The notes under the pieces are model-generated. The model saw only the letters and a list, made by a program, of their open reading frames with translations. It was not told where the DNA came from and did no database searches. From Panax quinquefolius (taxonomy: Eukaryota > Streptophyta > Magnoliopsida > Apiales > Araliaceae), in the NCBI GenBank assembly GCA_020205615.1, contig CM035173.1:50086617-50150616 (forward strand): a stretch of DNA of 64,000 nucleotides, in the 5' to 3' direction. Below, in pieces: positions 9,440-57,930 of the stretch. A program made the translations under genes and the position numbers. Each line of letters opens with the position of its first letter. Position 1 is the stretch's first letter.

Positions 9440-10190
9440 CTGAATAGGCTCCTGGGGAAACAACCTCGCCATAACTCTACGCCGAACGGATCGAATCGAC
9501 TCCCCTATCTCGATATGCGCCCTCCTAGTCCCACTGCGCTAGCCCTCATATGCTGCGTCTAGTGCCAGTCCTAAAGTCTCGACCCTGACCTTCATTGCCT
9601 GCAGTGCTATCTCTAACTGGTCCACCCGCTTAGCTGACTCATAAAATGCCTCCTCCACGCGTATCTTATCTGTAATCTCCAAGTCAAACTCACCCCGCAT
9701 TGCCAGATGCTCTACGCTCAGTGCTCCAAACTTTGCCTTCTCCTGCTTCTAGTCAGATTCGCGCCTCATAGCTCAATCGATTACACGATTAGCGAAGATC
9801 TTTATACTATTGCTCCATGTACTAATGAGTCATATTCTATGCCTCCAACTGTAAAATCCTCTGCTCCTGTGCATAGTTTTTCTCTAGCAGGTCACCGATC
9901 ATCACATCCTGTGAGGTGTCCATCACCTCCTCTAGTACGGCCTCCTACTGGTCTACGGAATGGCTCCCCTGACTACCACTCGACATCCTATAATAAAATA
10001 AGGATACAACATCAGTACTACAATAAAATATATTCATTGATAAAATGAAATAATATTTTATTAAGTACAACACCTACTCGATGAATTTCCACAATCCATC
10101 TCCTAACATACTCTATAAGAGTTTTCTACTAAGGTTATAACCTAGGTTTCTCATTCCAAATGTTTATAACCTATGGCTTTGATACCAACC
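9440..10190 (-). pseudogene. A': gag amino terminus and leader of a second copy of the A family
   Basis: From the start codon at 9986 the minus strand runs parallel to the gag start of element A (9986-9704 matches 53904-53631). It then continues into a coiled-coil-like gag stretch (HLAMRGEFDLEITDKIRVEE, then SAKRVDQLEIALQAMKVRVE) that element A has lost by a deletion near 53630. It ends abruptly at the LTR of T. Upstream, 9987-10174 is the leader and 10175-10187 the PBS. Because this leader and PBS abut the 3' LTR of A, A' and A share an LTR, as in a tandem LTR-internal-LTR-internal array. Confidence 0.75.
10175..10187 (-). promoter_or_regulatory. PBS of A', tRNA-iMet type
   Basis: TGGTATCAAAGCC on the minus strand, three bases after the LTR end at 10191. 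It matches the usual iMet PBS (TGGTATCAGAGC) with one change. Confidence 0.75.
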
Positions 10191-10543
10191 TGTGACGCCC
10201 CCAAATCCAGGTTCAGATTCGGTGCTCACGATCTATCATCATCATAATCATTCTATAACGATTACGGAATAATAAACATACATTGTTCATTATAATAAAG
10301 TATCATAACATAGTCCCAAGGTCTTCTTAACCTAAACTTAAACACACCATTCATATTACAAAAGGGTTACATAAGAAATTCCATCAGATAATAATAACTA
10401 ACATTCATTCTAAACTATTCCTGGATCTTGTCTTTGCCTTTGTCTTTCGTATTGGATCCTTCAGGCTTAACTGAAATAAATGTCATGATATAACAAGGGT
10501 AAGCAACTAATTTGCTTAGCAAGTTTATATACAAGGGAGATAT
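10191..10543 (-). repeat. 3' LTR of A, distal piece (LTR 3' end)
   Basis: Matches 54109-54470 of the 5' LTR base for base apart from scattered changes. It begins TGTGACGCCC on the plus strand. It stops at GATAT (10539-10543), where B is inserted. Confidence 0.9.
10539..10543. other. Target-site duplication of B, left
   Basis: GATAT immediately before the TGTAACGCCC end of B. The same five bases follow B at 28396-28400, and the 5' LTR of A has a single GATAT at the empty site (near 54466). Confidence 0.9.
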
Positions 10544-12317
10544 TGTAACGCCCCCAAAATAGGTCCAATCCATACAACCTATTCTGAGTCGCCAAATACA
10601 TGGTACAGAAAACAACTACAACTTTATTACTACAACTGTCGTGCAAAATACAACGACATACATACTGTGAGTTTCAATACAAATATTGTAACGTATATAA
10701 TACGACAATATTCATACTCAAATTATTACATGCCATATAAAGTAGTCTTTTAAAATAGTCTTTTTCATAAAATTCATAACTCTTAATCTATACATCCAAA
10801 AATCGCAATTTTTGGACACCATCTAGAAAACTCATCAAATTATCATTTCAAATTTTTCCAAAATTTTTGAAGGTCGGAAAAATTACGAAACTGAAAAACA
10901 TAATAACCCTTAAAATCCCTTACCTCAAAAGAGCGGTATTTCTGACTGGAATAGCTGATGAAAAGCCGAAGAAAACTTGCACTGAAAAACAACTCTCAGA
11001 GTACCTAAATACTCACAAAAATGCGCTCGATAATATAGAGAGAAAGAAAACTTGCTTCTGGTGTGATTTTTAATTCTAACTTAACCCTCTATTTATAGGA
11101 AAATGTTAGCCCGCCGAAGCAGACTTGACCTGCTACCTGATGGCTTTACCTGCTTCTATTTTCACCCACCACATTTGAAATTTAATTTGAGCACATTTCT
11201 CACCAACCAAAAGTGGAGCCCACCAATTCTAGAATTTTCCACCAAAATGATAAATTCAGAAACTTCAACAATTTCTTAACCAGTCACCTCTTAAAATTCA
11301 TAACAAAACATACGTTCATTTTTAACGGTTCAAAATTTGTTGACATATACTCAACTTATATATGTATAACATATCCAAAAATCACAACGATCCAACGGTC
11401 GGATTAAAAATTATAACTCACGTAATATATCTCAAGAACACTGGTTTGATTTTTAATACCTCTAATCCGACAAAATATTGATAAAACACCTCAACATTAA
11501 TTCCTTCATTTATAACCACATAAATAAATCCATCATTTATATCCGCATCAAATAAATATTTCCTTATCATATAAATCAATAATTAATTATTCACAAATAA
11601 TATTACAGAATCGCAATTATGACAACCAGACATTTCCTAAGAAAGAGGGGGCTTCCCAATAAGGATTTCTCCTTACTGGCGTACAATTAGGTGACCAAAC
11701 CTCTCCTTAACAGAACTTTCTAGACATTGCTAATAATTCTATCTAATAATATTATTACAAATAATATGAATTATTGATCTGATAATAGGAAATATTGTGC
11801 AGTGACAATTATTGAAACAACAATAATATAAAATATCAACGCAGCAATTATTGAATCAATAAAATAAAATATTGAACAATAATTATTGTAACAATTATGG
11901 AGTAGTGTCGTCTTACGTAAGAATCAATAATTCAAAAATACTGTGCAATACCGTGTGCTACTGTGCAACCACGCATATTAATGTATTTTAACCACCAGGT
12001 ATTCCAACAGTGTTAACAGTAACAACTTCGCCTTTATTTATAAAAACTCAAACTTGTCATTTTCTTCATCCGATAATTATTCTGTTATGGCGCCCACAAA
12101 TGGCTGCGCCGTCGTACGAATATTCCACAACATTAAGAATATTCCACAACCAAACGAATATTCCCCGACAACAATGAATATTTTATAACCACTTGCTTAT
12201 TTTTAAAAATTTATATATGTCACCCTTAACTTTACTTTTTATCAATTTAATCATTTACTGAATAATAATTATAAGAAAAATTGAATACTTTTATTTTATA
12301 AAATTCGGGGTCTTACA
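10544..12317 (-). repeat. B LTR1, internally deleted
   Basis: 1,774 bp. It matches the other LTRs at both ends but lacks about 1.87 kb in the middle. The join is at about 10742, where ATAAAGTA meets TTTTAAAATAGTC (compare 12838 and 14700 of LTR2). The lost part holds the 39-bp repeats and most of the leader. TATA (11098-11089) and an AG|GTAAGG donor-like site (10926-10918) remain. Confidence 0.9.
11089..11098 (-). promoter_or_regulatory. TATA box, B LTR1
   Basis: CTATAAATAG on the minus strand, followed by AGGGTTAAG. The same box is found in LTR2-5. Confidence 0.6.
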
Positions 12318-12637
12318 ATCTCCCCTCCTTATGAAATTTCGTCCCCGAAATTTACGTACCTGGTATTTCAAAGAGTTAAGAATACCTTGCTTTTATTTCA
12401 GATTCCATCTTCCCTGTCATCATGATTTCTCCATTGCTCATCCCATGTATTTCAGATTTCATTCTAGAATACAGCTTTAAAATAAAGGTTAATTGACATA
12501 TCACAATTTGTCAACTTAAATAAGAAAATTTAGCTTAGGTAGGACACACACTAGCGAAGGATATTACTCGTCTCTCCCTTCCTAGTTCTAATCCCCGATC
12601 TCCACCAGAGACCATATCCCTAAGCTCTGATACCAAA
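12318..12637 (-). other. B internal segment I1 (PPT to PBS)
   Basis: 320 bp. The LTR2-side edge has an iMet PBS (TGGTATCAGAGC on the minus strand, 12635-12624). The LTR1-side edge has a purine tract (TAAGGAGGGGAGAT, 12331-12318). The PBS-side half resembles the leader of D (48711-48870) and the PPT-side half resembles the polyprotein end of D (46115-46230). It therefore looks like a nearly complete internal deletion of that type of element. There is no ORF of note. Confidence 0.85.
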
Positions 12638-13555
12638 TGTAACGCCCCTAAAATAGGTCCAATCCATCCAACCTATTCTGAGTTGCCAAATACATGGTAC
12701 AGAAAACAACTACAACTTTATTACTACAACTGTAGTGCAAAATACAACGACATGCATACTGTGAGTTTTAATACAAATATTGTAACGTATATAATATGAC
12801 AATATTCATACTCAAATTATTACATGCCATATAAAGTACAGCAACAAATATTTCAAGTCTCGAAAGGAACACGAGAAGATTTTTGTTATCTTCATTATAT
12901 CGCGGTGCACTTTTGACGCTTTCAAGGTTGGGTTCTCATCACCCTATTGTTGTTCACCAAAATCAATTATTAAGTGACGTATAAAATACAACACACACAT
13001 CTTAGGTCCTCAATACAATTATATATTGCATGTCATGCCTTTTTATAATGTATTGAGAAACTTCGACAGTCTCGGAACATCACACTATTTCCTTGTTATC
13101 CCCGCTGGACCCAGCTACACTCTTATTACCTGAAAGGAATTGTGAAGCAAAATGGTGAGCACAACTAGCCCAGTAAAGAATATCATGACTAAAGATAATT
13201 AAATTATCAATAGCCTTCATCAGTAATAAATCGGAGATTTAGAACATATGGTAGATGATAAAACTTTTCAAAAATAGTTACAGCGGAACGAGAAATCCAT
13301 TAGAAGATTCAAATAATTTATAAATTCTATTATCTTCTCCATGTTAAAAGTCCACCAACAATGTTTTATCCCTGTAACATCAATCAACAGTTCTTTTCCA
13401 CAATCATATGAATAACTCATAATCATAATTATAGTTCTAAATTCCCCTTCTCATCTACGACAAAGATAATTTTCATCACCTGTCTTTACCTGAAACATCA
13501 AAGATCATGGTTGTACTAAATCACAGTTCCTGTTCATAATCATGCTAATAAGTTC

Positions 13556-13670
13556 TTCTTTGCACTACATGCCAAAGATACTCAACAACCGGTCATCTTT
13601 GCACTACGGGCCAAAGATATTCATCAATAATTCATCTTTGCACTACAGGCCAAAGATATTCATATCTCAA
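13556..13670. repeat. 39-bp hairpin repeats, LTR2 (three copies)
   Basis: Each unit holds ATCTTTG, a 10-base loop such as CACTACGGGC, and CAAAGAT, then a TATTCATCAATAATTC-like spacer. The arms are perfect inverted repeats in the second and third copies. Confidence 0.85.
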
Positions 13671-14007
13671 AGAAATACATAATCATTTCAGAATTTATAT
13701 AAACCATAATTATAACCATGTTGATCAATTCACGTTTGCACTTAAGCTAAAAATATTCAATTGTAAATTCAATGGTCATGATCATACCAGTCAACGATTC
13801 AACTTTGCACTACTAGCCAAAGAGAACCCATAGTCACGATCATACCAATAATCTACCCATCTTTACATTCAAGTCAAAGAGAAATTTCTTCACCGGATTA
13901 TAAAAATGTTATATATAATAATAAAAATAATATGATCAAAACATGGATTTAATTTCAAGAGTAAGATTCATAAATCAACGATAATTTGGTCAGAAAAAGA
14001 AACCAAT

Positions 14008-14065
14008 TTTTTCGTGAATAGTAACTCGTGAATAGTAACTCATAAATAGTAACTCATGAATAGTA
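14008..14065. repeat. 16-bp GTGAATAGTAACTC repeats, LTR2
   Basis: Four imperfect units of GAATAGTAACTC(A/G)T. LTR3 has four (18053-18105), LTR4 two (about 22118-22146) and LTR5 three (about 26140-26180), so the number varies between LTRs of one array. Confidence 0.8.
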
Positions 14066-15037
14066 ACCCCAACACGAAAATATAAAGTTTCACAATAAAA
14101 TCCATATCAATATTTATAGTACCTTAATCCAAATGTTATAAATCACTTAATAATCTCATAATCTAATATTATTAATATTACCAAAATATCGTAATCATTT
14201 CTTAAACTATAAACAATTAATTTTAATTGTTTACACTTTACTAATTAATGCATCTAATCATCCTGAAATGCCAAACTCATAAGATTTCATCACCAATAAC
14301 CAAAATACTTATCAAAAATTTGCATATACCTTATATAGGATTCCCAAGCCATAAAATTCTATTTTCCAATTTTTTTACTTCACATAACATATTTAATTCA
14401 TTTACTCATAACTAGTCCATTTTCATGAAAAATACTAAATCAGTACAAACAAATTTTCTTTTCTGGATTTAGCGAATATAGTCCCATATTGAACATATAT
14501 TTTCTCGAAATTTTAAAATTCTTTTACTATTTTTCATATGGCCAAAATCTAGAAGAATATTTAGACATTTATCATAAATTGTGCTTTTGTCCAAAAATTC
14601 CAAAATTTACAGGATATATTGATATTATATAGATGTACTCCCAATAAATATTTCATCAATTTTGGAGTTAACCACAAGAAGTTATAAGGGTTTACTTTTA
14701 AAATAGTCTTTTCCCATAAAATTCATAACTCTTAATCTATACATCCAAAAATTGCCATTCTTGGACACCATCTAGAAAACTCATCAAATCATCATTTCAA
14801 ATTTTTTCAGAATTTTTGAAGGTCGAAAAAATTACGAAACTGAAAAACATAATAACCCTTAAAATCTCTTACCTCAAAAGAGCTGTATTTCTGACTAGAA
14901 TAGCGGATGAAAAGCCGAAGGAAACTTGCACTGAACAACAACTCTCAAAGTATCTAAATACTCACAAAAATGCGCTCGATAATATAGAGAGAAAGAAAAC
15001 TTGCTTTTGGTGTGATTTTCAATTCTAACTTAGCCCT

Positions 15038-15047
15038 CTATTTATAG
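15038..15047 (-). promoter_or_regulatory. TATA box, B LTR2
   Basis: CTATAAATAG on the minus strand followed by AGGGCTAAG. Transcripts would start near 15010. Confidence 0.6.
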
Positions 15048-16281
15048 GAAAATGTTAGCCCGTAAGGCATTTCGACTGCTACCACGATGGCTTTACCTGC
15101 TACTATTGCCACCCACCACATTAGAAATTTAATTTGAGCACATTTCTCACCAACCAAAAGTGGAGCTCACAAATTCTAGAATTTTCCACCAAAATGATAA
15201 AATTCAGAAACTTCAACAATTTCTGAACTAGTCACTTCTTAAAATTCATAACAAATCATACGTTTATTTTTAACTGTTCAAAATTTGTTGACATATACTC
15301 AACTTATATATGTATAACATATCCAAAAATCACAACGATCCAACGGTCGGATTAAAAATTATAACTCACGCAATATATCTCAAAAACACTAGCTTGATTT
15401 TTAATACCTCCAATCCGACAAAATACTGATAAAGCACCTCAACATTAAATCCTTCATTTATAACCACATAAATAAATCCATCATTTATATCCGCATCAAA
15501 TAAATATTTCCTTATCATATAAATCAATAATTAATTATTCACAAATAATATTACAGAATCACAATTATGATAACCAGGCAGTTCTCAGGAAAGAGGGGGC
15601 TTTCCAATAAGGATTTTTCCTTACTAACGCCCAATTAGGTGACCAAACCTCTCCTTGACAGAACTTTCTAGACATTGCCAATAATTCTATCTAATAATAT
15701 TATTCAAATAATATGAATTATTGATCTGATAACGAGAAATACTTGTCAGCAAATGACAATTATTGAAACAATAATAATATAATATATCAACGCAAAGAAT
15801 TATTGAATCAATAAAATAAAATATTGAATAAAGAATTATCGTAACAATTATTGAGTAGTGCCTTCTTACGTAAGAATCAATAATTCAAAATATCTTGTGC
15901 ACCGCAGTGTACTCTCTTTGTGCAACCACGCGTATTACTATATTTTAACCACTGGGTATTCCAACAGTGTTAACAGTAACAACTACGCCATTATTTATAA
16001 AAACTCAAACTTGTCATTTTCTTCATCCGACAATTATTCTTTATGGGGCCCACAAATGGTTTTACACATAAATATCGCATTTAATATTCCTCGACATTAA
16101 GAATATTCCACGACCAAACGATTATTCCCCGACAACAATGAATATTTTATAACCACTTACTTATTTTGAAAAATTTATATATGTCACCCTTAACTTTACT
16201 TTTTATCAATTTAACGATTTACTGAATAATAATTATAAGAAAAATTGAATACTTTTATTTTATAAAATTTGGGGTCTTACA

Positions 16282-16599
16282 ATCTCACCTCCTTATGAAA
16301 TTTCGTCCTCGAAATTTACGTACCTGATATTTCAAAGAGTTGAGAATACCTTGATTTCATTTCAGATTCCATCTTCCCTGTCATCATGATTTCTCCATTG
16401 CTCATCTCCTGTATTTCAAATATCATTCTAGAATACAGCTTCAAAACAAAAGTTAATTGACATATCACAATTTGTCAACTTAAGTAAGAAAATTCAGCTT
16501 AGGTAGGACACACACTAGCGAAGGATATTACTCGTCTTTCCTTCTAGTGATATTCCCCGATCTCCGCCAGAGACCATATCCCTAAGCTCTGATACCAAA
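16282..16599 (-). other. B internal segment I2
   Basis: 318 bp, the same layout as I1. PBS TGGTATCAGAGC at 16597-16586. The adjacent end of LTR3 reads TATAACG on the plus strand, so its terminal TG/CA has mutated. Non-coding. Confidence 0.85.
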
Positions 16600-17516
16600 T
16601 ATAACGCCCCCAAAATAGGTCCAATCCATCCAACCTATTCTGAGTCGCCAAATACATGGTACAGAAAACAACTACAACTTTATTACTACAACTGTCCTGC
16701 AAAATATAACAACATATATACTGTGAGTTTCAATACAAATATTGTAACGTATATAATACGATAATATTCATACTCAAATTATTACATGCCATATAAAGTA
16801 CAACAATAAATATTTCAAGTCTCCAAAGGAACACGAGAAGATTTCTGTCATCTTCATTATAACGCGGTGCACTTTTGACGCTTTCAAAGTCGGGTTCTCA
16901 TCACCCTATTGTTGTTCACCAAAATCTATTATTAAGTGACGTATAAATTATGAGACGCACATATTAGGTCCTCAATAAAATTATATATTGCATGTCATGC
17001 CGTTTTATAATGTATTGAGAAACTTCGACAGTCTCAGAGCATCACAATATTTCCTTGTTATCCCCGCTCGACCCAGCTACACTCTTATTACCTAAAAGGA
17101 ATTGTGAAGCAAAAGGGTGAGCACAACTAGCCCAGTAAAGAATATCATGACTAAAGATAATTAAATTATCAATAACCTTCATCAGTAATAAATTGGAGAT
17201 TTAGAACATATGGTAGATGATAAAACTTTTCAACCATAGTTACAGCGAAACGAGCAATCCATTAGAAGAGTCAAATAAACCTTAAATTCTATTATCTTCT
17301 CTATGTTAAAAGTCCTCCAACAATGTTTTATCCATGTAACATCAATCAACAGTTCCTTTCCACAATCATATGAATAACTCATAATCATAATTGTAGTTCT
17401 AAATTCCCTTCTCATCTAGGACAAAGATAATTTTCATCACCTGTCTTTACCTGAAACATCAAAGATCATGGTTGTACCAAATCACAGTTCCCGTTTATAA
17501 TCATGCTAATAAGTTC

Positions 17517-17700
17517 TTCTTTGCACTACATACCAAAGATACTCAACAACCGGTCATCTTTGCACTACGGGCAAAAGATATTCAACAGGTCATCTTTGCA
17601 CTATAGGCCAAAGATAATCAACAACAGGTCATCTTTGCACTACGGGCCAAAGATATTCATCAATAATTCATCTTTGCACTACAGGCCAAAGATATTCATA
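17517..17700. repeat. 39-bp hairpin repeats, LTR3 (five copies)
   Basis: Five units with ATCTTTG/CAAAGAT arms. One unit is three bases short in its spacer (near 17581). Confidence 0.85.
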
Positions 17701-19076
17701 TCTCAAAGAAATACATAATCATTTCAGAATTTATATAAACCATAATTATAACCATGATGATCAATTCACCTTTTCACTTAAGCTAAAAATATTCAATTGT
17801 AAATTCAATGGTCATGATCATACCAGTCAATGATTCAACTTTGCACTACTAGCCAAAGAGAACCCATAGTCACGATCATACCAATAATCTACCCATCTTT
17901 ACACTCAAGTCAAAGAGAAATTTCTTCACCAGGATTATAAAAATGTTATATATGATAATAAAAATAATATGATCAAAACATGGATTTAATTTTAAGAGTA
18001 AGATTCATAAATCAACGATAATTTGGTCAGAAAAAGAAACCAATTTTTTTGTGAATAGTAACTCGTGAATAGTAACTTATGAATAGTAAGTCATGAATAG
18101 TAACCCCGACACGAAAAGATAAAGTTTCACAATAAAATCTATATCAATATTTATAGCACCTTAATCCAAATGTTATAAATCACTTAATAATCTCATAATC
18201 TACTATTATTAATATTACCACAATATCGTAATCATTTCTTAAACTTATAAACAATTAATTTTAATTGTTTACACTTTACTAATTAATGCATTTAATCATC
18301 CTGAAATGCCAAACTCATAAGATTTCATCACCATTAACCAAAATCCTCATAAAAATTAGCATTTACCTTATATAGAATTCCCAAGCCATAAAATCCTATT
18401 TTCTAATTTTTTTACTTCACATAACATATTTAATTCATTTACTCATAACTAGTCCATTTTCATGAAAAATACTAAATCAGAACAAACAAATTTTCTTTTC
18501 TGGAATTTAGCAGAATATAGTCCCATATTGAACATATATTTTTCTCGGAATTTTTAAAATTCATTTACTATTTTTCATATGGCCAAAACTGCCGAATATT
18601 TAGAAATTTATCATAAATTGTGCTTTTGTCCAAATATTCTAAAATTTATAGGGTATACTGATATTATATAGATGTACTCCCAATAAATATTTCATCAATT
18701 TTGGAGTTAACCACAAGAAGTTATAAGGGTTTACTTTTAAAATAGTCTTTCCCCATAAAATTCATAACTCTTAATCTATACATTCAAAAATTGCCATTTT
18801 TGGACACCATCTAGAAAACTCATCAAATTATCATTTCAAATTTTTCCAGAATTTTTGAAGGTCGAAAAAATTACAAAAACGAAAAAAATAATAACCCTTA
18901 AAATCCCCTACCTCAAAAGAGCAGTATTTCTGACTGGAATAGTGGATGAAAAGCCGAAGGAAACTTGCACTGAACAACAACTCTTAAAGTATCTAAATAC
19001 TCAAAAAAATGTGCTCGATAATATAGAGAGAAAGAAAACTTGCTTCTGGTGTGATTTTCAATTCTAACTTAGCCCT

Positions 19077-19086
19077 CTATTTATAG
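19077..19086 (-). promoter_or_regulatory. TATA box, B LTR3
   Basis: CTATAAATAG on the minus strand, same context as in LTR2. Confidence 0.6.
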
Positions 19087-20329
19087 GAAAAATGTTAGCT
19101 TGGCAAGCGGCAGACTTGACCAAGCTACCGATGGCTTTACCTACTACTATTGCCACCCACCACATTTGAAATTTAATTTGGGCACATTTCTCACCAACCA
19201 AAAGTGGAGCCACACCAATTCTAGAATTTTCCACCAAAATGATAATTTATAAACTTCAACAATTTTTTGAACAAATCACTTCTTAAAATTCATAACAAAT
19301 CATAATGCGTTCATTAATCGGTTCAAAATTTGTTGACATATACTCAACTTATATATGTATAACATATCCAAAAATTACAACGATCCAACGGTCGGATTAA
19401 AAATTATAACTCACATTATATATCTCAAGATCACTAGCTTTGATTTTAATAATACCTCCAATCCGATAAAATAATCGATAAAATACCTCAACATTAATTC
19501 CTTCATTTATAACCACATAAATAAATCCATCATTTATATCCGCATCAAATAAATATTTTCTTATCATATAAATCAATAATTAATTATTCACAAATAATAT
19601 TACGTAATCACAATTATGACAACCAGCGGTTCCCACGAAAAGGGGGCTTTTCAATAAGGATTTCTCCTTCTTGCGCCTTGCATTAGGTGACCAAACCTCT
19701 CCTTGAATGAACTTTCTAGACATTGCCAATAATTCTATCTAATAATATTATTCAAATAATATGAATTATTGATCCGATAATCTGAAATATTGTATAGTGA
19801 CAATTATTGAAACAATAATAATATAAAATATCAACGCATCAATTATTGAATCAATAAAATAAAATATTGAACAAGAATTATCTTTGTAACAATTATTGAG
19901 TAGTGCCTTCTTACGTAAGAATCAATAATTCAAAAATATTGTGCAATACCGTAATAGCTTTCTTTATGCGACCACGCGTATTCATCGTATTTTAACCACC
20001 GGGTATTCCAATGATGTTAATGATAATAACTACGCCAATTATTTATAAAAACACAAACTTGTCATTTTCTTCATCCGAACCAATTATTACATTATGGGGC
20101 CCACAAATGGTCGTACATCGCCGTCATACGAATATTCCCCGACATTAAGAATATTCCACAACCAAACGAATATTCCCCGACAACAATGAATATTTTATAA
20201 CCACTTGCTTATTTTGAAAATTTTATATATATCACCCTTAACTTTACTTTTTATCAATTTAATCATTTACTGAATAATAATTATAAGAAAAATTGAATAC
20301 TTTTATTTTATAAAATTCGGGGTCTTACA

Positions 20330-20656
20330 ATCTCCCCTCCTTATGAAATTTTGTCCCCGAAATTTACGTGCACTGTATTTCAAAGAGTTGAGAATACCTT
20401 GCTTTCATTTCGCATTCCATCTTCCCCATCATCATGATTTCTCCATTGCTCATCTCCATGTATTTCAAATATCATTCTAGAATACGACTTCAAAACAAGG
20501 GTTAGGTTAATTGACATATCACAATTTGTCATCTTTAAATAAGAAAATTTAGCTTAGGTAGGACACACACTAGCGAAGGATATTACTCATCTCTCCTTCC
20601 TAGTTCTATTCCCCGATCTCCGCTGGAGAGATCATATCCCTAAGCTCGATACCAAA
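20330..20656 (-). other. B internal segment I3
   Basis: 327 bp, same layout. Its PBS has lost one base (TGGTATCGAGC, 20654-20644). There is a short duplication (GGTTAGGTTAA) near 20500. Non-coding. Confidence 0.85.
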
Positions 20657-21581
20657 TGTAACGCCCCCAAAATAGGTCCAATCCATCCAACCTATTCTCG
20701 AGTCGCCAAATATATGGTACAGAAAAAAACAAACTACAACTTTATTACTACAACCGTCAGTGCAAAATATAACGACATACATCTTGTGAGTTTCAATACA
20801 AATATTAGAACGATATATAATACGAAAATATTCATACTCAAATTATTACATGCCATATAAAGTACAAGAAAAATATTTCAAGTCTCCAAAGGAACACGAG
20901 AAGATTTCTTCATCATCTTCATTATAACGCTGCACTTTTGACGCTTTCAAGGCTCGGGTTCTCATCACCCTATTGTTGTTCACCAAAATCAATTATTAAG
21001 TGACGTATAAAATACGACACACACATCTTAGGTCCTCAATACAATTATATATTGCATGTCATGACATTTTATAATGTATTGAGAAACTTCGACAGTGTCG
21101 GAGCATCACACTATTTCCTTGTTATCCCCGCTCGACCCAGCTATACTCTTATTACCTGAAAGGAATTGTGAAGCAAAAGGGTGAGCACAACTAGCCCAGT
21201 AAAGAATATCATGACTAAAGATAATTAAATTATCAATAGCCTTCATCAGTAATAAATCAGAGATTTAGAATATATGGTAGATGATAAAACTTTTCAACCA
21301 TAGTTGCAGTGGAACGAGCAATCCATTAGAAGAGTCAAATAAACCATAAATTCTATTATCTTCTCCATGTTAAAAGTCCACCAACAATGTTTTATCCTTG
21401 TAACATCAATCAACAGTTCCTTTCCACAATCATATGAATAACTCATAATCATAATTGTAGTTCTAAATTCCCCTTCTCATCTAGGACAAAGATAATTTTC
21501 ATCACCTGTCTTTACCTGAAACATCAAAGATCATGGTTATACCAAATCACAGTTCCTGTTCATAATCATCCTAATAAGTTC

Positions 21582-21775
21582 TTCTTTGCACTACATGCTA
21601 AAGATACTCAATAATCGGTCATCTTTGAACTACGAGCCAAAGATATTCAACAACAGGTCATCTTTGCACTATAGGCCAAAGATAATCAACAACAGGTCAT
21701 CTTTGCACTACGGGCCAAAGATATTCATCAATAATTCATCTTTGCACTACAGACCAAAGATATTCATATCTCAAA
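21582..21775. repeat. 39-bp hairpin repeats, LTR4 (five copies)
   Basis: The same position within each unit recurs at 21588, 21627, 21666, 21705 and 21744, giving an exact period of 39. Confidence 0.9.
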
Positions 21776-23118
21776 GAAATACATAATCATTTCAGAATTT
21801 ATATAAACCATAATTATAACCATGATGATCAATTCACCTTTGCACTTAAGCTAAAAATATTCATTTGTAAATTCAATGGTCATGATCATACCAGTCAACG
21901 ATTCAACTTTGCACTACTAGCCAAAGAAAACCCATAGTCACGATCATAACAATAATCTACCCATCTTTTAATTCAAGTCAAAGAGAAATTTCTTCACCAG
22001 GATTATAAAAATGGTATACATGATAATAAAAATAATATGATCAAAACATGGATTTAATTTCAAGAGTAAGATTCATAAATCAACGATAATTTGGTCAGAA
22101 AAAGAAACCAATTTTTTCGTGAATAGTAACTCATGAATAGTAACCCCGACACGAAAAGATAAAGTTTCACAATAAAATCCATATCAATTTTTATAGAACC
22201 TTAATCCAAATGTTATAAATCACTTAATAATCTCATAATCTAATATTATTAATATTACCACAATATCGTAATCATTTCTTAAACTTATAAACAATTAATT
22301 GTAATTATTTACACTTTACTAATTAATGCATTTAATCATCCTGAAATGCCAAACTCATAAGATTTCATCACCAATAACCAAAATCCTCATCAAAAATTTA
22401 CATATACCTTATATAGGATTCTCAAGCCATAAAATCCTATTTTTCAATTTTTTTACTTCACATAACATATTTAATTCATTTACTCATAACTAGTCCATTT
22501 TCATGAAAAATACCATATCAGTACAAATAAATTTTCTTTTCTAGAATTTAGCAGAATATAGTCCCATATTGAACATATATTTTTCTCAGAATTTTTAAAA
22601 TTCATTTACTATTTTTCATATGGCCAAAACTGCCGAATATTTAGAAATTTATCATAAATTGTGCTTTTGTCCAAAAATTCCAAAATTTACAAGGTATACT
22701 GATATTATATAGGTGTACTCCCAATAAATATTTCATCAATTTTGGAGTTAACCACAAGAAGTTATAAGGGTTTACTTTTAAAATAGTCTTTTCTCATAAA
22801 ATTCATAACTCTTAATCTATACATCCAAAAATTACCATTTTTAGACACCATCTAGAAAACTCATCAAATCATCATTTCAAAATTTTCCAAAATTTTTGAA
22901 GGTTGGAAAAATTACAAAACTGAAAAACATATTAACCCTTAAAATCTCGTACCTCAAAAGAGCAATATTTTCTGACTGGAATAGCGGATGAAAAGTCGAA
23001 GGAAACTTACACTGAACAACAACTCTCAATGAATCTAAATACTCACAAAAATGCGCTCGATAATATAGAGAGAAAAAAAACTTGTTTCTGGTGTGATTTT
23101 TAATTCTAACTTAGCCCT

Positions 23119-23128
23119 CTATTTATAG
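23119..23128 (-). promoter_or_regulatory. TATA box, B LTR4
   Basis: CTATAAATAG on the minus strand, same context as in the other B LTRs. Confidence 0.6.
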
Positions 23129-24356
23129 GAAAATATTAGCCCGCCGAAGCAGACTTTACCTGCTACCTGATGGCTTTACCTACTACTATTGCCACCCACC
23201 ACATTTGAAATTTAATTTGGGCACATTTCTCACCAACCAAAAGTGGAGCCCACCAATTCTAGAATTTTCCACCAAAATGATAAATTCAGAAACTTCAACA
23301 ATTTTTGGACCAGTCACTTCTTAAAATTCATAACAAATCATGCCTTCATTTTTAACGGTTCAAAATTTGTTAACATATACTCAACTTATATATGTATAAC
23401 ATATCCAAAAATCACAACGATCCAACGGTCGGATTAAAAATTATAACTCACGCAATATATCTCAAGAACACTAGTTTGATTTTTAATACCTCCAATCCGA
23501 CAAAATACTGATAAAACACCTCCACATTAATTCTTTCATTTATAACCACATAAATAGATCCATCATTTATATTCGCATCAAATAAATATTTCTTTATCAT
23601 ATAAATCAATAATTAATTATTCATAAATAATATTACAGAATCACAATTATGACAACCATACAATTCCCAGGAAAGAGGGGCTTTCCAATAAGGATTTCTC
23701 CTTACTGGCGCACAATTAGGTGACTAAACCTCTCCTTGACAGAACTTTCTAGACATTGCCAATAATTCTATCTAATAATATTATTGAAATAATATGAATT
23801 ATTGATCTGATAATGGAGAATACTGTGCAATGACAATTATTGAAACAATAATAATATAAAATATCAACGCAGCAATTATTGAATCAATAAAATAAAATAT
23901 TGAACAGTAATTATAGTAACAATTATTGAGTAATGCCTTGATACATAAGAATCAATAATTAAAAAATACTGTGCAATAAATACTGCTAATGCTACTTCTT
24001 TAACCACGATATTACATCGTATTTTAACCACCAAGTATTCCAACAAAGTGTTAATTGATAATAACTACTGCCGTTATTTATAAAAACTCAAACTTGTCAT
24101 TTTCTTCATCCGACAATTATTCTGTTATGGGGCCCACAAATGGCTGCGTCGTCGTACGAATATTCCCCGACATTAAGAATATTCCACAACCAAACGAATA
24201 TTCCCCGACAACAATGAATATTTTATAACCACTTGCTTATTTTGAAAATTTATATATTTCACCCTTAACTTTACTTTTTATCAATTTAATCATTTACTGA
24301 ATAATAATTATAAGAAAAATTGAATACTTTTATTTTATAAAATTCGGGGTCTTACA

Positions 24357-24675
24357 ATCTCCCTTCCTTATGAAATTTTGTCCCCGAAATTTACGTACCT
24401 GGTATTTCAAAGAGTTGAGAATACCTTGCTTTCATTTTAGATTCCATCTTCCCCGTCATCATGATTTCTCCATTGCTCATCTCCTCGTATATCGATATCA
24501 TTCTAGAATCTGACTTCAAAATGAGGTTAATTGACATATCACAATTTATCAACTTAAGTAAGAAAATTTAGCTTAGGTAGGACACACACTAGCGAAGGAT
24601 ATTACTCGTCTCTCCCTTCCTAGTTCTATTCCCCGATCTCCGCCAGAGACCATATCCCTAAGCTCTGATACCAAA
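24357..24675 (-). other. B internal segment I4
   Basis: 319 bp, same layout, with an intact PBS TGGTATCAGAGC at 24673-24662 and a purine tract at the LTR4 side. Non-coding. Confidence 0.85.
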
Positions 24676-25599
24676 TGTAACGCCCCCAAAATAGGTCCAA
24701 TCCATCCAACCTATTCTGAGTTAGCCAAATACATGGTACGTAAAACAACTACAACTTTATTACTACAACAGTGTAGTGCAAAATAAACGACATATATATC
24801 TTGTGAGTTTCAATACAAATATTGTAACGTATATAATATGAAAATATTCATACTCAAATTATTACATGCCATATAAAGTACAGCAACAAATATTTCAAGT
24901 CTCGAAAGGAACACGAGAAGATTTCATTTCTCTTCATTATAACGCTGCACTTTTGACGCTTTCAAGGTCTGGGTTCTCATCACCCTATTGTTGTTTACCA
25001 AAATCAATTATTAAGTGACGTATAAAATATATACACACACATCTTAGGTCCTCAATACAATTATATATTGCATGTCATGCCATTTTATAATGTATTGAGA
25101 AACTTCAACGATCTCTCTGAGCATCACACTATTTCCTTGTTATCCCCGCTTCGACCCAAATTACACTCTTATTACCTGAAAGGAATTGTGAAGCAAAAGG
25201 GTGAGCACAACTAGCCCAGTAAAAAATATCATGACTAAAGATAATTAAATTATCAATAGCCTTCATCAGTAATAAATCGGAGATTTAGAACATATGGTAG
25301 ATGATAAAACTTTTCAACCATAGTTGCAGCGGAACGAGCAATCCATTAGAAGAGTTAAATAAACCATAAATTCTATTATCTTCTCCACGTTAAAAGTCCA
25401 CCAACAATGTTTTATCCCTGTAACATCAATCAACAGTTCCATTCCACAATCATATGAATAACTCATAATCATAATTGTAGTTCTAAATTCCCCTTCTCAT
25501 CTAGGACAAAGATAATTTTCATCACATGTCTTTACCTGAAACATCAAAGATCATGGTTATACCAAATCACAGTTCTTGTTCATATTCATGCTAATAAGT

Positions 25600-25795
25600 T
25601 CTTCTTTGCACTACATGCCAAAGATACTCAACAACCGGTCATCTTTGTACTTCGGGCCAAAGATATTCAACAACAGGTCATCTTTGCACTATAGGCCGAA
25701 GATAATTAACAACAGGTCATCTTTGCACTACGGGCCAAAGATATTCATCAATAATTCATCTTTGCACTACAGGCCAAAGATATTCATATCTCAAA
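25600..25795. repeat. 39-bp hairpin repeats, LTR5 (five copies)
   Basis: Five units, same arms as in LTR3 and LTR4 with scattered changes. Confidence 0.85.
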
Positions 25796-27152
25796 GAAAT
25801 ACATAATCATTTCAAAATTTATATAAACCATAATTATAACCATGTTGATCAATTCACCTTTGTACTTAAACTAAAAATATTCAATTGTAAATTCAATGGT
25901 CATGATCATACCAGTCAAAGATTCAACTTTGCACTACTAGCCAAAGAGAACCCATAGTCACGATCATACCAATAATCTACCCATATTTACACTCAAGTCA
26001 AAGAGAAATTTCTTCACCAAGATTATAAAAATATTATATATGATAATAAAAATAATATGATTAAAACATGGATTTAATTTCAAGAGTAAGATTCATAAAT
26101 CAACGATAATTTGGTTAGAAAAAGAAACTAATTTTTTTGTGAATAGTAACTCATGAATAGTAACTCATGAATAGTAACCCCGACACGAAAAGATAAAGTT
26201 TTACAATAAAATCCATATCAATATTTATAGCACCTTAATCCAAATGTTATAAATCACTTAATAATCTCATAATCTAATATTATTAATATTACCACAATAT
26301 CGTAATCATTTCTTAAACTTATAAACAATTAATTTTAATTGTTTACACTTTACTAATTAATACATTTAATCATCCTGAAATGCCAAACTCATAAGATTTC
26401 ATCACTAATAACCAAAATCCTCATCAAAAATTTTCATATACCTTATATAGGATTCCCAAGCCATAAAACCTATTTTTCAATTTTTTTACTTCACATAACA
26501 TATTTAATTCATTTACTCATAATTAGTCCATTTTCATGAAAAATACCAAATCAGTACAAACAAATTTTTTTTTTCTATGATTTAGCGAATATAGTCCTAT
26601 ATTGAACATATATTTTTTTTAGAATTTTTTTAAATTTATTTAATATTTTTCATATGGCCAAAACTGCCGAATATTTAGACATTTTATCATAAATTGTGCT
26701 TTTGTACAAAAATTTCAAAATTTACAGGGTATACTGATATTATATAGATGTACTCCCAATAAATATTTTATCAATTTTGGAGTTAACCACAAGAAGTTAT
26801 AAGGGTTTACTTTTAAAATAGTCTTTTCCCATAAAATTCATAACTCTTAATCTATACATCCAAAAATTACCATTTTTGGACACCATCTAGAAAACTCATC
26901 AAATTATCATTTCAAATTTTTCCAGAATTTTTGAAGGTCGAAAAAATTATGAAACTGAAAAACATAATAACCCTTAAAATTCCTTACCTCAAAAGAGCAG
27001 TATTTCTGACTGGAATAGCAGATGAAAAGCCGAAGGAAACTTGCATTGAACAACAACTCTCAAAGTATCTAAATACTCACAAAAATGCGCTCGATAATAT
27101 AGAGAGAAAGAAAACATGCTTCTAGTGTGATTTTCAATTCTAACTTAGCCCT

Positions 27153-27162
27153 CTATTTATAG
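27153..27162 (-). promoter_or_regulatory. TATA box, B LTR5
   Basis: CTATAAATAG on the minus strand. This is the likely start of any full-length B transcript, near 27125. Confidence 0.6.
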
Positions 27163-28395
27163 GAAAATGTTAGCCTTGAAAGCGGACTTCACTTGCTACT
27201 GCGATGGGCTTTACTCGCAACTATTGCAACTCACCACATTTGAAATTTAATTTGAGCACATTTCTCACTAACCAAAAGTGGAGCCCACCAATTCTAGAAT
27301 TTTCCACCAAAATGATAAAATTCAGAAACTTCAACAATTTCTGAACTAGTCACTTCTTAAAATTCATAAAAAATCATACGTTCATTTTTAATGGTTTAAA
27401 ATTTGTTGACATATACCCAACTTATATATGTATAACATATCCAAAAATCACAACGATCCAATGGTCGGATTAAAAATTATAACTCACGCAATATATCTCA
27501 AGAACACTAGTTTGATTTTTAATACCTCCAATCCGACAAAATACTGATAAAACACCTCAACATTAATTCCTTCATTTATAACCACATAAATAAATCCATC
27601 ATTTATATCCGCATCAAATAAATATTTCCTTATCCATATAAATCAATAATTAATTGTTCATAAATAATATTATGAATCACAATTATGACAACCAGAGGCG
27701 GGTTTGCGAGAAAGAGGGGCTTTCCAATAAGGATTTCTCCTTACTGGCGCGCAATTAGGTGACCAAACCTCTCCTTATCAGAACTTTCTAGACATTGCCA
27801 ATAACTTTATCTAATAATATTATTCAAATAATATGAATTATTGATCCGATAATGGGAAATCTTGTGCGATGACAATTATTGAAACAACAATAATATAAAA
27901 TATCAACGCATCAATTATTGAATCAATAAAATAAAATATTGAGCGAGAATTACTTTGTAACAATTATTGAGTAGTGCCTTCTTACGTAAGAATCAATAAT
28001 TCAAAAATACTCGTAATAATACCGGTAAGTTATTCTTTGTTAACTACGCGTATTACATGTATATTTTAACCACCAGATATTCCAACAGTGTTAACAGTAA
28101 CAACTACGCCATTATTTATAAAAACTCAAACTTGTCATTTTCTTCATCCGATAATTATTCTGTTATGGGGCCCACAAATGGCTGCGCCGTCGTACGAATA
28201 TTCCTCGACATTAAGAATATTCCACGACTAAACGAATATTCCCTGACAACAATGAATATTTTATAACCACTTGCTTATTTTAAAAAAATTATATATGTCA
28301 CCCTTATCTTTACTTTTTATCAATTTATTCATTTACTGAATAATAATTATAAGAAAAATTGAATACTTTTATTTTATAAAATTCGGGGTCTTACA

Positions 28396-28400
28396 GATAT
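28396..28400. other. Target-site duplication of B, right
   Basis: GATAT directly after the TTACA end of B, then the LTR of A resumes (ATCATGACTAGAAAG). Confidence 0.9.
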
Positions 28401-31109
28401 ATCATGACTAGAAAGAAGTCTTGCTTTCAATGTTCAACGATAGTATAAGATTGTGAAGGAACATGAATTAATAATCAACAATTGAATATTCGAATAATTG
28501 AATAACGTGTACTGAGTGATTTTGAAATAACCATGAACATTTGCCAAGGTTCTCTGTCATTTAAACTGGACCTCTTAATAAGTTTTGGTATTCAAGGGGA
28601 TTAGCCTTTCATACCCCATGATTTATGCATAAACACTTAATAATCCAGCAACGATATCATGCCTTAATCAAATTCGTCCTTTTCTTAGTCAAGAGTTCTT
28701 ATCATATCAATTTAATAAGAACAACTTTTTAAAACACATTTGATTTAACAAATTTAAACATACTTGATCTAGCTGATACAATTAGCATAGATCTATCTCA
28801 TAAACAGTTCATGAATGAAAGAACTTTAATTTAATTCACAGTTCAATAATAATAGAACAGGAATTCAATTGCACAAAGTGCGAATTTCAATAATCATTAT
28901 AGATGTGAATAATCATCAATAATTACTCACTAACATGCTTTGAAAATAATAACTCGAGTTTGAGTTAGGAAACTTGCCTCGTTTATAGGTTACGGCTACG
29001 CAATTAAATTCTATCCGCTAGGTAGTTTAATTATCTTCCTTTGAGAGACCTATAGTTAATCTTTCAATTAGCCACAGCATAACATTGGATTATGTAATCA
29101 TATAGTTATTATATATTACATTTAGTTCTTAGAAATATTATCATGTCTCGATAATGTTACTATTAAATAACTACTTTTAATTCACTTAATATTATTAATC
29201 TTGATAATATTTAATTCACCTCTTAGTATTATTAGTTCACTAATAATACTTTTACTCGCTTACTAATATTATTAACATCTTAATAATATTTTAATACATT
29301 ACTAATATTATTAATCCCTTTATAATATTTTAATCATGCATTAATATTATTACTTTAATAATATCTTATTTATGCTTTAGTATCATTAATCAATTAATAA
29401 TACTTTTATTCATTTACCAATAGTATTAATATTTTATTCATTTAATAATATTTTATTCCTTTACTAATGTTATTACATTTTAAATAATATTTTATTTAAT
29501 CTCAAATATTATTATTTACTTAATAATATTTTAATCATCAAATAATACTTTAATTTAATATTATTAATCTTTTAATAATATTTTAGTCTAAGATTAATAT
29601 TTTAACCTAATATTATTAATTATTTAATAATACATTAATCATTTATTAATGCTTAAATCAAATACTATTAACCATTTAATAATATTTTAATGAAGTTTTA
29701 ATCTTAATATTTTTATTTACTTAACAATATCATATTCTAATATTATTAATATCATAATAACATTTTAATAATTTATTAGATTAATAAACAATTTATTCTA
29801 ATTGTTCACCCTATATAAAAACAACTTATTTAATATCCATAAAAGGTCATAAATAATATTTCTTATTATTAATTATCAAAATGCCCTAAAATAGTCATAA
29901 TATTATATATTAGGAGTATTCAAGCATTAAAATCACAATTTTCTTATTTAAGACATCATTTAACTATTTATTTCTTATTATTCATAACTTCATCATTTTT
30001 AGGAAAAATACCAAACTGATTTCAAAAATTCTTCTTTTCTGTGATTGCACAGTATATGACCCAACAATGATTTCCAAAGTTTTTTGGAATTTTAGAAAGT
30101 GATTTACTAATTTTAAAGTGTCCAAAACACTTGGATCTTGCTTCATTTTTCATAAATCGGGTTTTGCTCAGAATATTCTGAAACTTTCAGGGTATACTCT
30201 CATAACATATATGAACATATTGTAAAAGTTTCATATTTTTCCCATGTATACACTGTGAAAAATTTGGGTGTTAATATTTAGGAGTCCTTTACGGAAATAG
30301 CCATTACGCACAACTTATAAATTGAATCGTATCCGTTCTTTTTCCTACACGTATATAACTTCTTAAGGTACCTCTGTGATTTTTTCCAGATTTTTAAAAG
30401 ACTTGAAACTATCTAAAACACCCTTAAGAAAAATAGGGACAGTAGCTCTTTTAGGGTTTTAAAACATTAATTCTCTATGTGGACTGTTTTGGGAAAAATA
30501 GCCCCCTTGGCTTCAATACTTGCTAGATTTGTGTTCTACCACTTGGGTTTACTAGATAACTCATGTATCTAGAACCCCCCCCAACAACGATCACAAATCC
30601 AAGTTGAAAAACTTGAGTTACACAAGATTTAGTGGAAGAAAAACAAGGGTTTAACCCATAGGAGAACATATGCTCATTTTCTTCCTCTAAACCTTTGATC
30701 TAAAACTCAAGATACTTAGTTCCATACATGATGATATGTAGAACTAGGGTATCTTGAGTATTAGTTCATAACCCCATCAAATCTTTCTATAACACCAAAT
30801 AGAAGAAGAAGATGAAGATTTAGGTTATACCTTGTTCTAGTAGCAACCTTCCTTGATTTACCAAAGTAATATATGATCTTAGGGTGCATTAATCAAGCTA
30901 GCACACTCCTCTCTTTCTCTTCAAAAATCGAACCCCTCTCTCTCTTTTCTCTCTTTGTATTTTACTAGCTTAGGAGAAAAATAGAAGAAGAAGAAGAAGA
31001 ATAGGATAAATGAAATGAATAGCAATGAAATGTGGTGATCTAACTAATATCCCCCATACCTTTGTTGTTCCTTGGATAAAAGGCTTTGCCTTATCTCTTT
31101 CAATTAAGC

Positions 31110-31114
31110 CTAAT
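31110..31114. other. Target-site duplication of C, left
   Basis: CTAAT before the TGTGGCGCCC end of C. CTAAT is repeated at 40343-40347. The 5' LTR of A has a single CTAAT followed by CATGTG near 57195. Confidence 0.9.
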
Positions 31115-31699
31115 TGTGGCGCCCCCAAAATTAGGTATACGCCACCCATCTTGGGTCGCCACTTACATGGTACATAAATTCAAATACAACTTACTAATAT
31201 AACTGCGTAAAATAATACACGACATAAACCGTGAGTTTGAATACAACTATTGTCTACTAGATATTATACAAACTCAAAAGGAGTCCTCATTACAACTATT
31301 ATCACACTATTTCACGTAATAGTGAGGACTACTAATGCTATCCTCCGGACCATTACTCCGCTCCCGACTCGTCCCAAATTTATGTTCTCATTTCAAGAGA
31401 ATAAAGAAAAGAAAGGGTGAGCTCAACTAGCCCAAGAAGAAATATTACGACTAAGATAATGCGTATAAATTATCATTAGCCTTCAACAAAGTTAAACCGA
31501 TAAAATACAATAGACAACCAGCTTTAATCATATGAATATGCAATCCATTAAAAGAGTCAAGTAGAGAATAAAGTCTACTATCTTTTAGGTTTTAAAAGGT
31601 TTTCATCAATTTTTATCACCGAGACTCACTAATAAATAAACCACCACATCTAATCATCCCCGCACCACTATCAAGATTTTCATCAAATTATCAATGGTC

Positions 31700-31834
31700 A
31701 TGACTATACCGAATCACCCCGGTCATAATCATACCAAAACTATCCATCATCGCATTACAAAAGCCACCGAGGACTTTTGTCACATCATTTATATCAAGTC
31801 ATGATTATACCGAATGATCCCCGGTCATAATCAT
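31700..31834. repeat. Two long inverted repeats (type 2 hairpins) in C LTR
   Basis: ATGACTATACCG with CGGTCATAATCAT (31700-31732), and ATGATTATACCG with the same right arm (31801-31834). The arms match over 12 of 13 positions with a loop of about 9-10 bases (AATGATCCC). Confidence 0.8.
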
Positions 31835-32099
31835 ACTAAGTTCATCTACGCACGTAAGCCAAAGATAACATAATATAACATGAGAGGATGATGACAATGA
31901 CATAGTAATTCAATAAAACAAGTTCAAGAATTATTTAATCCATGAATTATTAACGTCCAAATTGTCAACATGATATCGCTTTTAGAGTAAAATTCAAGAA
32001 TGATCAAGAATATTTCCATGAAAAGATATCGATGAAACGCAAATATCAAGGATATTCTACTAATTTCATGGAGTATAGAAGTCAAAGTTTTAACCAACT

Positions 32100-32824: not shown

Positions 32825-32834
32825 CTATTTATAG
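32825..32834 (-). promoter_or_regulatory. TATA box, C 3' LTR
   Basis: CTATAAATAG on the minus strand followed by AAGCTCATTCC. The donor-like site lies about 145 bp downstream. Confidence 0.6.
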
Positions 32835-36110: not shown

Positions 36111-36129
36111 CGGACTCTTTACTTATGGC

Positions 36130-40342: not shown

Positions 40343-41080
40343 CTAATCATGTGATTAATAGTGCTAAATAGATTTTCTACCAATGGGAGATGGACACACT
40401 TGTGCTTGATGTAAGAGTTACTAATTTAAAGAACTTGATTAGCATAATTTTGTTTCCTTAAAAGGCCTAATAGGTCCGGTCACTTTGCCCCCATTATCTC
40501 CTCCATTTTGCTTTTATTTTAATGCACAAATTTAATTAATCAAAAGTCTAAAATATCCTTAATCAAGTGGGCTAAGTATTAGTTTGCATTTTATTTCTTT
40601 TGGGCTTCACCTTTAATTGTTTTGGGCCATGTAATAAACCTAGTCTAACAATTTTAATAAATGTTGCCCAAATTGTTTATTTAGGGTTTCCATTCCCAAT
40701 CTTATGAAATTTAATTACTTATACATGTGACTTTAGCTCATAACCTAATTAGGTTTACTAGAAATAGGTTTAAAATTATTAGTCACTTGAAATAACAAGA
40801 TTATCCACTTAAGTTAGCATACATATTAAATACTAACCTTTCCTTATTACCATAACTCTTATGTTATTTAATTGTCTCACCTAATGTATAATTAGGTTAC
40901 GAAGCTTTCATTTTTAATGAAATCTATAAATGTATATATCCATAACTATAGTATATATGTTTATTGATCCATGCACCACTTCACATATGTTGTCACATAT
41001 TAAATCACTATATAACACAAAGTTTTAAATATCAATAATGTATATACATATATAGTGACTTAAAATTCACGGTTATTACA
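40343..41080 (-). repeat. 3' LTR of A, proximal piece (LTR 5' end)
   Basis: Begins with the right CTAAT duplication of C (40343-40347) and matches 57190-57930. It ends at 41080 with TGTAATAACC on the minus strand, directly after the PPT. Confidence 0.9.
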
Positions 41081-54092: not shown

Positions 54093-54105
54093 GGCTTTGA
54101 TACCA
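54093..54105 (-). promoter_or_regulatory. PBS of A, tRNA-iMet type
   Basis: TGGTATCAAAGCC on the minus strand, three bases from the LTR end, identical to the A' site. Confidence 0.75.
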
Positions 54106-54108
54106 ACC

Positions 54109-57100: not shown

Positions 57101-57930
57101 AATAGCAATGAAATATGGTGATCTAACTAATATCCCCCATACCTTTGTTGTCCCTTGGATAAAAGGCTTTGCCTTATCTCTTTCAATTAAGCCTAATCAT
57201 GTGATTAAGGGTGCTAAGTAGATTTTCTACCAATGGGAGATGGACACACTTGTACTTGATGCAAGAGTTACTAATTTAAGGAACTTGATTAGAATAATTT
57301 TGTTGCCTTAAAAGGCCTAATAGGGTCGGTCACTTTGCCCCCATTATCTCCTCCATTTTGCTTTTATTTTAATGCACAAATTTGATTAATCAAAAGTCTA
57401 AAATACCCTTAATCAAGTGGGCTAAGTATTGGTTTGTATTTTATTTCTTTTGGGCTTCTCCTTTAATTGTTTTGGGCCATGTAATAAAAATAGTCTAACA
57501 ATTTTAATATATGTTGCCCAAATTGTTTATTTAGGGTTTCCATTCCCAATCTTATGAAATTTAATTACTTATACATGTGACTTTAGCTCATAACCTAATT
57601 AGGTTTACTAGAAATAGGTTTAAAATTATTAGTCACTTGAAATAACAAGATTATCCACTTAAGTTAGTATACATATTAAATACTAACCTTTCCTTATTAC
57701 CATAACCCTTACGTTATTTAATTGTCTCACCTAATGTATAATTAGGTTACGAAGCTTTCATTTTTAATGAAATCTATAAATGTATATATCCATAACTATA
57801 GTATATATGTTTATTGATCCATGCACCACTTCACATATGTTGTCACATATTAAATCACTATATAACACAAAGTTTTAAATATCAATAATGTATATACATA
57901 TATAGTGACTTAAAATTCACGTATATTATA
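54109..57930 (-). repeat. 5' LTR of A (intact, 3.8 kb)
   Basis: Its left end is slightly eroded (GGGACGCC where the other LTR has TGTGACGCC). It contains the empty insertion sites of B (GGGAGATATATCATG near 54462) and C (GCCTAATCATGTG near 57192). The block 55230-55870 is the same ~30-bp AATATTATTAAT repeat as in the 3' LTR, with one extra unit near 55505-55550. Differences from the 3' LTR are scattered single bases and small indels. Confidence 0.92.

Follow-up and report, generated by a model that had tools for sequence, protein, structure and literature searches.

A tandem array of five long terminal repeats (LTRs) alternating with four short internals (LTR-I-LTR-I-LTR-I-LTR-I-LTR) occupies positions 10544-28395 of a 64,000-nt stretch of the Panax quinquefolius genome (GCA_020205615.1, contig CM035173.1, 50,086,617-50,150,616; hereafter the window). 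It spans 17,852 bp, with its features on the minus strand. That the whole array is a single insertion is strongly supported, since the target duplication GATAT is found only outside it and an empty site is present in the other LTR of its host, element D. With about even confidence, we prefer to see in it one insertion of a multimer of a non-autonomous Ty3/gypsy-type element, integrated in one step into an LTR that belongs to a larger relative.

When the window is aligned to itself, a 4.0-kb spacing recurs across the 18-kb block, and a self-match 13.8 kb long at 91.6% identity excludes a repeat structure arising by chance. A sequence-only reading of this DNA had proposed five LTRs and four internals of 318-327 bp, and the junction coordinates confirm both (Table 1). 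The 4.0-kb period that it gave for the whole array is valid for L2-L5 only (spacings of 3962, 4057 and 4019), because L1 lacks about 1.86 kb internally: 10544-10744 corresponds to the first 200 bp of L2-L5 and 10747-12317 to their last 1.57 kb, the junction 10744/10747 linking points 1.86 kb apart in the other LTRs. LTRs make up 16568 of the 17852 bp, and the measured 92.8% agrees with the earlier estimate of about 92 percent. Each full LTR also contains a 39-bp minisatellite, with 3.0 copies in L2 and 4.7 copies in L3-L5.

On the minus strand the LTR reads TGTAAGACCCC...GGGGCGTTACA, then TTTGGTATCAGAGC, which we take to be the usual plant initiator-methionine primer site, the tRNA match being putative. 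In the same orientation every internal has a primer-site-like motif on one side and a purine-rich tract on the other, with GGAGGGGAGAT or a near variant at its end and the next TG following. The motifs are thus present at all four internals, as had been claimed, with the reservation that the primer motif of I3 is one base short. From the LTR-end, primer-site and purine-tract motifs we infer that the minus strand is the sense strand of the array. The longest stop-to-stop frame in the array has 100 codons, and no Pfam family was found in the eight frames of 77-100 codons that made up the scan.

The empty site is provided by the right LTR of D, a Ty3/gypsy element, the array sitting in the left one. 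The left flank (9711-10543) matches 53627-54469 and the right flank (28395-31114) matches 54464-57197, and these two matched regions run into each other with one GATAT at 54465-54469. Target duplications around inner units, named beforehand as an observation that would contradict a single insertion, are absent from all four inner LTR-internal-LTR stretches, and GATAT at the outer ends only holds as described.

The relative ages of the units were approached through a cleaned LTR alignment retaining 3370 of 4119 columns. Cleaned two-parameter distances (K) are 0.054-0.068 for the L2-L5 pairs and 0.056-0.082 between L1 and the others, and the internals, at 0.068-0.100, are not younger than the array LTRs (0.054-0.082). 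Adjacent units are no more alike than distant ones: uncorrected divergence at lags 1 to 4 is 0.0518, 0.0541, 0.0499 and 0.0500 over all usable cleaned columns, and 0.0562, 0.0578, 0.0489 and 0.0500 over the 1379 columns common to the five LTRs. The cleaned columns of L2-L5 hold 251 private changes (54-72 per LTR) and 28 two-to-two sites, split 13:9:6, and the corresponding tree has one internal branch of 0.0029 (approximate likelihood-ratio test, aLRT, 81) and tips of 0.024-0.031. L1 shows 26 private changes against 44-60 in the uncleaned alignment and 17 against 19-33 in the cleaned columns, where its short branch is nearly gone. In the alignments and LTR tree that the sequence-only reading had suggested as a check, the internals match the LTRs in divergence and the five LTRs form one nearly star-like clade when 13 LTR sequences sampled at 11 other loci are included (aLRT 99.3/bootstrap 100), with internal branches of 0.002-0.005 and tips of 0.030-0.082. 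This wider tree was built from pieces that each lay within a single sampled stretch, with two border-crossing LTRs and several nested or partial ones set aside.

Because an unequal exchange duplicates no less than one full period, a young stretch of one period must remain, at some lag, from the last such event. In the cleaned columns, the smallest ratio of observed to expected one-period divergence is 0.884. Star simulations give a mean of 0.869 (5-95% range 0.805-0.917) and reach the observed value in 73 of 200 runs; exchanges spread evenly over the lifetime give a mean of 0.355 and never reach it (0 of 200). An even spread over the first half succeeds in 3 of 200 runs and over the first fifth in 22 of 200, and with all exchanges at one time the counts are 44, 10, 1 and 0 of 200 at 0.1, 0.2, 0.3 and 0.4, respectively. 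Together with the uncleaned data, these simulations favour an origin of the units in roughly the first fifth to third of the time since insertion. Both one-step integration of a multimer and later unequal exchange had been proposed for this array and were the right routes to weigh; because the units are near-equal in age, one step or a very early expansion is favoured over later exchange, less sharply so in the uncleaned data.

A number of observations weigh against integration in one step. Over all 4119 columns the models are less clearly separated, with an observed ratio of 0.803. This ratio is reached by early-weighted exchange in 132 of 300 simulations (86 with variable branch rates) and with all events at 0.3 in 147 (64), the corresponding counts being 19 (13) for exchanges spread evenly over the lifetime and 5 (5) for all events at 0.5; the star reaches it in 293 of 300 (226), so that the fit of a pure star is imperfect. 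Without cleaning, the L2-L5 tree shows an internal branch of 0.0066 (aLRT 95.6). At 28, the two-to-two sites outnumber the 5-15 given by a star simulation that assumes equal bases and ignores transition bias, in a test that is weak alone, since 23.5% of the even-lifetime simulations pass it. The four internals of the window do not form a clade in a tree of 10 sequences of about 320 bp, where supports of 17-67 indicate little signal, and in one of the other arrays of the family described below (on C16) two of the three LTRs make a closer pair (K 0.042, the other pairs being at 0.060-0.061). The D LTR pair, at K 0.044, is less divergent than the array LTRs nested in it, contrary to the greater age expected of a host, and it also lies below two further elements nested in D, A (0.057) and B (0.070); unequal rates or conversion between the D LTRs would explain this gap, which is not CpG decay alone. 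Finally, no multimeric complementary DNA (cDNA) or transcript was seen.

The family is found elsewhere in the genome, both as single copies and as further arrays, the two forms that the sequence-only reading had suggested looking for. The scan covered 3.57 Gb in 821 contigs, on which the window is C23:50086617-50150616; the best 40 of 13,574 candidates were scored for a 1-kb L1 query, and the family was sampled at 11 places on 8 contigs, in 20 stretches altogether. C2, C4 and C7 each have a two-LTR copy whose internal is the same 0.32-kb segment, and C4 also has a solo LTR (Table 1), the remaining sampled places being partial, nested or truncated. An exact 27-base junction pattern has 177 occurrences genome-wide and none in a reversed control, and the 100 listed occurrences include four pairs on the same strand at a distance of one period (3530-4156 bases), on C10, C12, C15 and C16. 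All four are LTR-I-LTR-I-LTR arrays, and most of their pieces share 77-91% identity with L2 and I2; each has at least one outer LTR truncated or beyond the sampled stretch. Since exact matching misses two of the window array's own four junctions, the counts of arrays and junctions are floors. When up to 3 mismatches are allowed, 34,313 junction-like sites appear, probably with other families among them. Tandem arrays therefore recur in this family, at least four more of them having three LTRs and two internals, and together with the two-LTR copies they indicate that the 3.7-kb LTR and the 0.32-kb internal are genuine. An internal-centred query (best 40 of 8911 candidates) gave a candidate pair by spacing at C6:66267805/66272188, 4.4 kb apart, most of the other 38 matches being isolated. 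The pair C15:54084921/54105276, considered as an array by its spacing, was rejected, as 54090001-54100000 between its members has no match to LTR or internal.

No young internals are present in the four other arrays. Cleaned internal-internal K is 0.076 on C15, 0.070 on C10, 0.072 on C16 and 0.077 on C12, against LTR-LTR values of 0.041-0.058, 0.035-0.048, 0.042-0.062 and 0.071-0.078, respectively; internals perhaps evolve faster, and this comparison is therefore supporting only.

A two-LTR copy could instead have been expanded by early unequal exchange between LTRs, in at least two events (from two to three to five LTRs) while the copies were still near-identical, an explanation that we consider possible but doubtful. 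It too would yield a single target duplication and a near-star tree, the family does contain two-LTR copies and a solo LTR, the kind of reciprocal product concerned, and in the uncleaned data events at 0.1 and 0.2 reach the observed ratio in 288 and 249 of 300 runs, in addition to the 147 at 0.3. Neighbouring units, however, are no more similar than distant ones, and the poor fit of exchanges spread over the whole lifetime, in cleaned and full data alike, means that the events would all have to cluster early. It is improbable, in our view, that integrase-independent recombination of cDNA, by single-strand annealing or homologous recombination, added units singly to a resident two-LTR copy. Tandem insertions are called a hallmark of this pathway, which is suggested for plants, in a 2025 review (PMC12786077), but other lineages of the family would be expected from different source copies, and L1-L5 group together to the exclusion of all 13 sampled sequences. 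cDNAs from one master may be compatible with this recombination, the clade sample being small and the tree of internals weakly supported.

We do not favour a multimer whose units had already diverged before insertion, for which the outer LTR pair would be the youngest. The L1-L5 pair is indeed at 0.050 against 0.052-0.063 for inner pairs over the 1379 common columns, and at 0.074 against 0.097-0.109 over the uncleaned last 1.57 kb, and the array LTRs are more divergent than those of the host; yet in the cleaned L2-L5 columns outer L5 pairs (0.049-0.056) and inner pairs (0.049-0.055) overlap, and A and B, which are ordinary two-LTR elements, also exceed the divergence of D. Repeats of this length can be misassembled, but an assembly artefact is very improbable here: divergence between units is about 5-6% in cleaned sites, the private substitutions carried by each of L2-L5 argue against assembly duplication, the empty site agrees with the outer flanks, and four other contigs have arrays of a similar kind. 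Nested independent insertions were rejected for want of inner target duplications and given four matching internals, and a satellite in place of an element is ruled out by the LTR ends, the genomic two-LTR copies and the target duplications.

If integration took place in one step, the integrated molecule would already have been a multimer of four LTR-plus-internal units and one LTR, of about 19.7 kb, and L1 would have lost its 1.86 kb after the multimer had formed. The multimeric cDNA would have been joined through its two outer LTR ends, presumably by the integrase of an autonomous relative. Read-through transcription of a one-LTR circle, template switching in reverse transcription or recombination between cDNAs might each have supplied the multimer. 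Published discussions consider that one-LTR circles could yield tandem transcripts where termination is weak (PMC11899658), and touch on template switching for tandem elements (PMC7215508). We suggest, tentatively, that the family repeatedly integrates as preformed multimers, here near 20 kb in one integrase step, its arrays being made at insertion and not by later exchange.

Table 1. Features of the array, its host LTRs and sampled family copies (window positions unless a contig is given).
Feature	Position	Strand	Remark
Left target-site duplication GATAT	10539..10543	.	single copy in empty site 54465-54469
L1, internally deleted LTR, 1774 bp	10544..12317	-	3' LTR if minus strand is sense; self-alignment
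I1, 320 bp, internal without coding sequence	12318..12637	-	junction reading
L2, LTR, 3644 bp	12638..16281	-	
I2, 318 bp, internal without coding sequence	16282..16599	-	junction reading
L3, LTR, 3730 bp	16600..20329	-	plus-strand start TA, not TG
I3, 327 bp, internal	20330..20656	-	primer-site motif one base short
L4, LTR, 3700 bp	20657..24356	-	
I4, 319 bp, internal without coding sequence	24357..24675	-	junction reading
L5, LTR, 3720 bp	24676..28395	-	5' LTR if minus strand is sense
Right target-site duplication GATAT	28396..28400	.	
39-bp minisatellite	13547-13663 (L2), 17518-17698 (L3), 21583-21766 (L4), 25603-25786 (L5)		
D left LTR, piece outside array	10189..10538	-	
D left LTR, piece between array and nested element A	28401..31114	-	aligns to 54470-57197
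D left LTR, piece past nested element A	40343..41076	-	aligns to 57193-57926
D right LTR with empty site for array	54104..57926 (start approximate)	-	
Two-LTR copy	C4:75600158-75607693		TATCA/TATCA, perfect duplication
Two-LTR copy	C2:36777667-36785358		GCCAG/GCTAG, one mismatch
Two-LTR copy	C7:37207460-37215525		GTTTA/GTATA, one mismatch
Solo LTR	C4:70937882-70941732		AATGT/AATGT, perfect duplication

The interior of host element D carries on the minus strand a reverse transcriptase (RT)/RNase H region at 42468-43346 and, at 41111-41659, a Tf2-1-like SH3 domain plus a chromodomain below threshold (23.3 bits, Pfam cut-off 25.1). Among the 120 matches listed of 8000 scored, the named relatives of its RT come almost entirely from eudicots (Cucumis, Apium, Tanacetum, Solanum and others), and two bacterial names look like contamination. 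Outside its left LTR, 9711-10188 is a D-type leader piece with its own primer-site motif (10177), 79-94% identical per 100 bp to 53627-54103 and rising to about 99% near 10011; because of this piece, D itself may be a tandem remnant or a recombinant.

Other elements surround or interrupt D. Element A (31115-40342) lies within the D LTR that hosts the array and has two LTRs (cleaned K 0.057), a target duplication CTAAT, an empty site near 57197 and, in its interior, a 57-bp tandem repeat of 8.1 copies at 34041-34503. Element B (about 43409-51720), nested in the D interior, has an LTR pair with gag and protease matches between; as its interior is just 2.8 kb, B is possibly also non-autonomous. 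An LTR fragment in opposite orientation at 58372-59881 is, in its best part, 80-83% like the LTRs of B. The RT domain of another retroelement lies on the minus strand at 1103-1636, and the longer frames beside it (2660-3379 and 3533-4855) have no Pfam family.

A 2025 survey of plant tandems (PMC11899658) leaves the mechanism undecided, with complex insertion and subsequent recombination as the two candidates. Five LTRs in an old array allow a test that is hardly possible with three: units born together should show equal divergence at all lags, and exchange should leave some young one-period stretch. This lag test can be applied to any long array in any genome. Should one-step multimer integration be true, arrays that might seed satellites could arise at once, and if the multimers were preformed, multimeric reverse transcription in a plant would be preserved here as a direct fossil.

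Like tandem LTR retrotransposons, the array is an LTR-bounded alternation with a 5-nt duplication around the whole array only; unlike the curated rice tandems, it shows no protein domain in the frames scanned, its internals being 318-327 bp long. As in tandemly arrayed terminal-repeat retrotransposons in miniature (TRIMs), it is an LxIy array without protein genes; TRIM LTRs measure a few hundred bp, and the full LTRs here 3644-3730 bp. Large retrotransposon derivatives (LARDs) have a long non-coding internal of kilobases, compared with 0.32 kb here. LTR and leader blocks of more than 300 bp are 67-77% identical to element B, with its gag and protease; the array itself offers no domain for classification, and to judge by the end motifs the family may be a Tekay-type Ty3/gypsy chromovirus derivative.

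Tandem insertions of full-size LTR retrotransposons are reportedly common in plants, with the Tekay type enriched in rice (Morales-Diaz et al. 2025, PMC11899658), so that the case for the novelty of a tandem array with 4-kb units is weaker than the sequence-only reading had stated. The tandems described in that survey share with the Panax array the alternation of LTRs and internals, an LTR at both ends, one short target duplication, Ty3/gypsy membership and a mechanism left between complex insertion and recombination. Its two worked examples have two internals with a common middle LTR, where the Panax array has five LTRs and four internals, and 28 of 28 tandems in its curated rice set have protein-domain regions, whereas the Panax internals are non-coding, 0.32 kb long, and the array is 93% LTR. 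A maize TRIM array described in 2016 (PMC4717578) has the same L5I4 topology of five LTRs and four internals, one outer target duplication (ATAAT) and a non-autonomous nature, but is small, 862 bp by the coordinates that the paper gives, compared with 17.85 kb and 3.7-kb LTRs in Panax. Cassandra arrays (PMC7215508) are likewise made of LTR elements without protein genes, and both recombination and concatenated cDNA are considered for them there; the Cassandra LTR has 5S rRNA sequence, whereas no Rfam family reaches its gathering score within the Panax window. For barley, that paper refers to three-LTR structures of BARE1 numbering at least 4600. A kangaroo endogenous retrovirus megasatellite (Koga 2023, as reported in PMC11899658) also consists of provirus-like tandem units with common LTRs, but is centromeric, in contrast to one four-unit insertion in Panax. 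An array that combines five LTRs of several kilobases with internals near 0.3 kb was not found in the literature searched, subscription journals being mostly outside its reach. Tandem LTR elements within one target duplication, the L5I4 topology and an open mechanism are thus already in print, and it is in shape and length that the Panax array is unusual.

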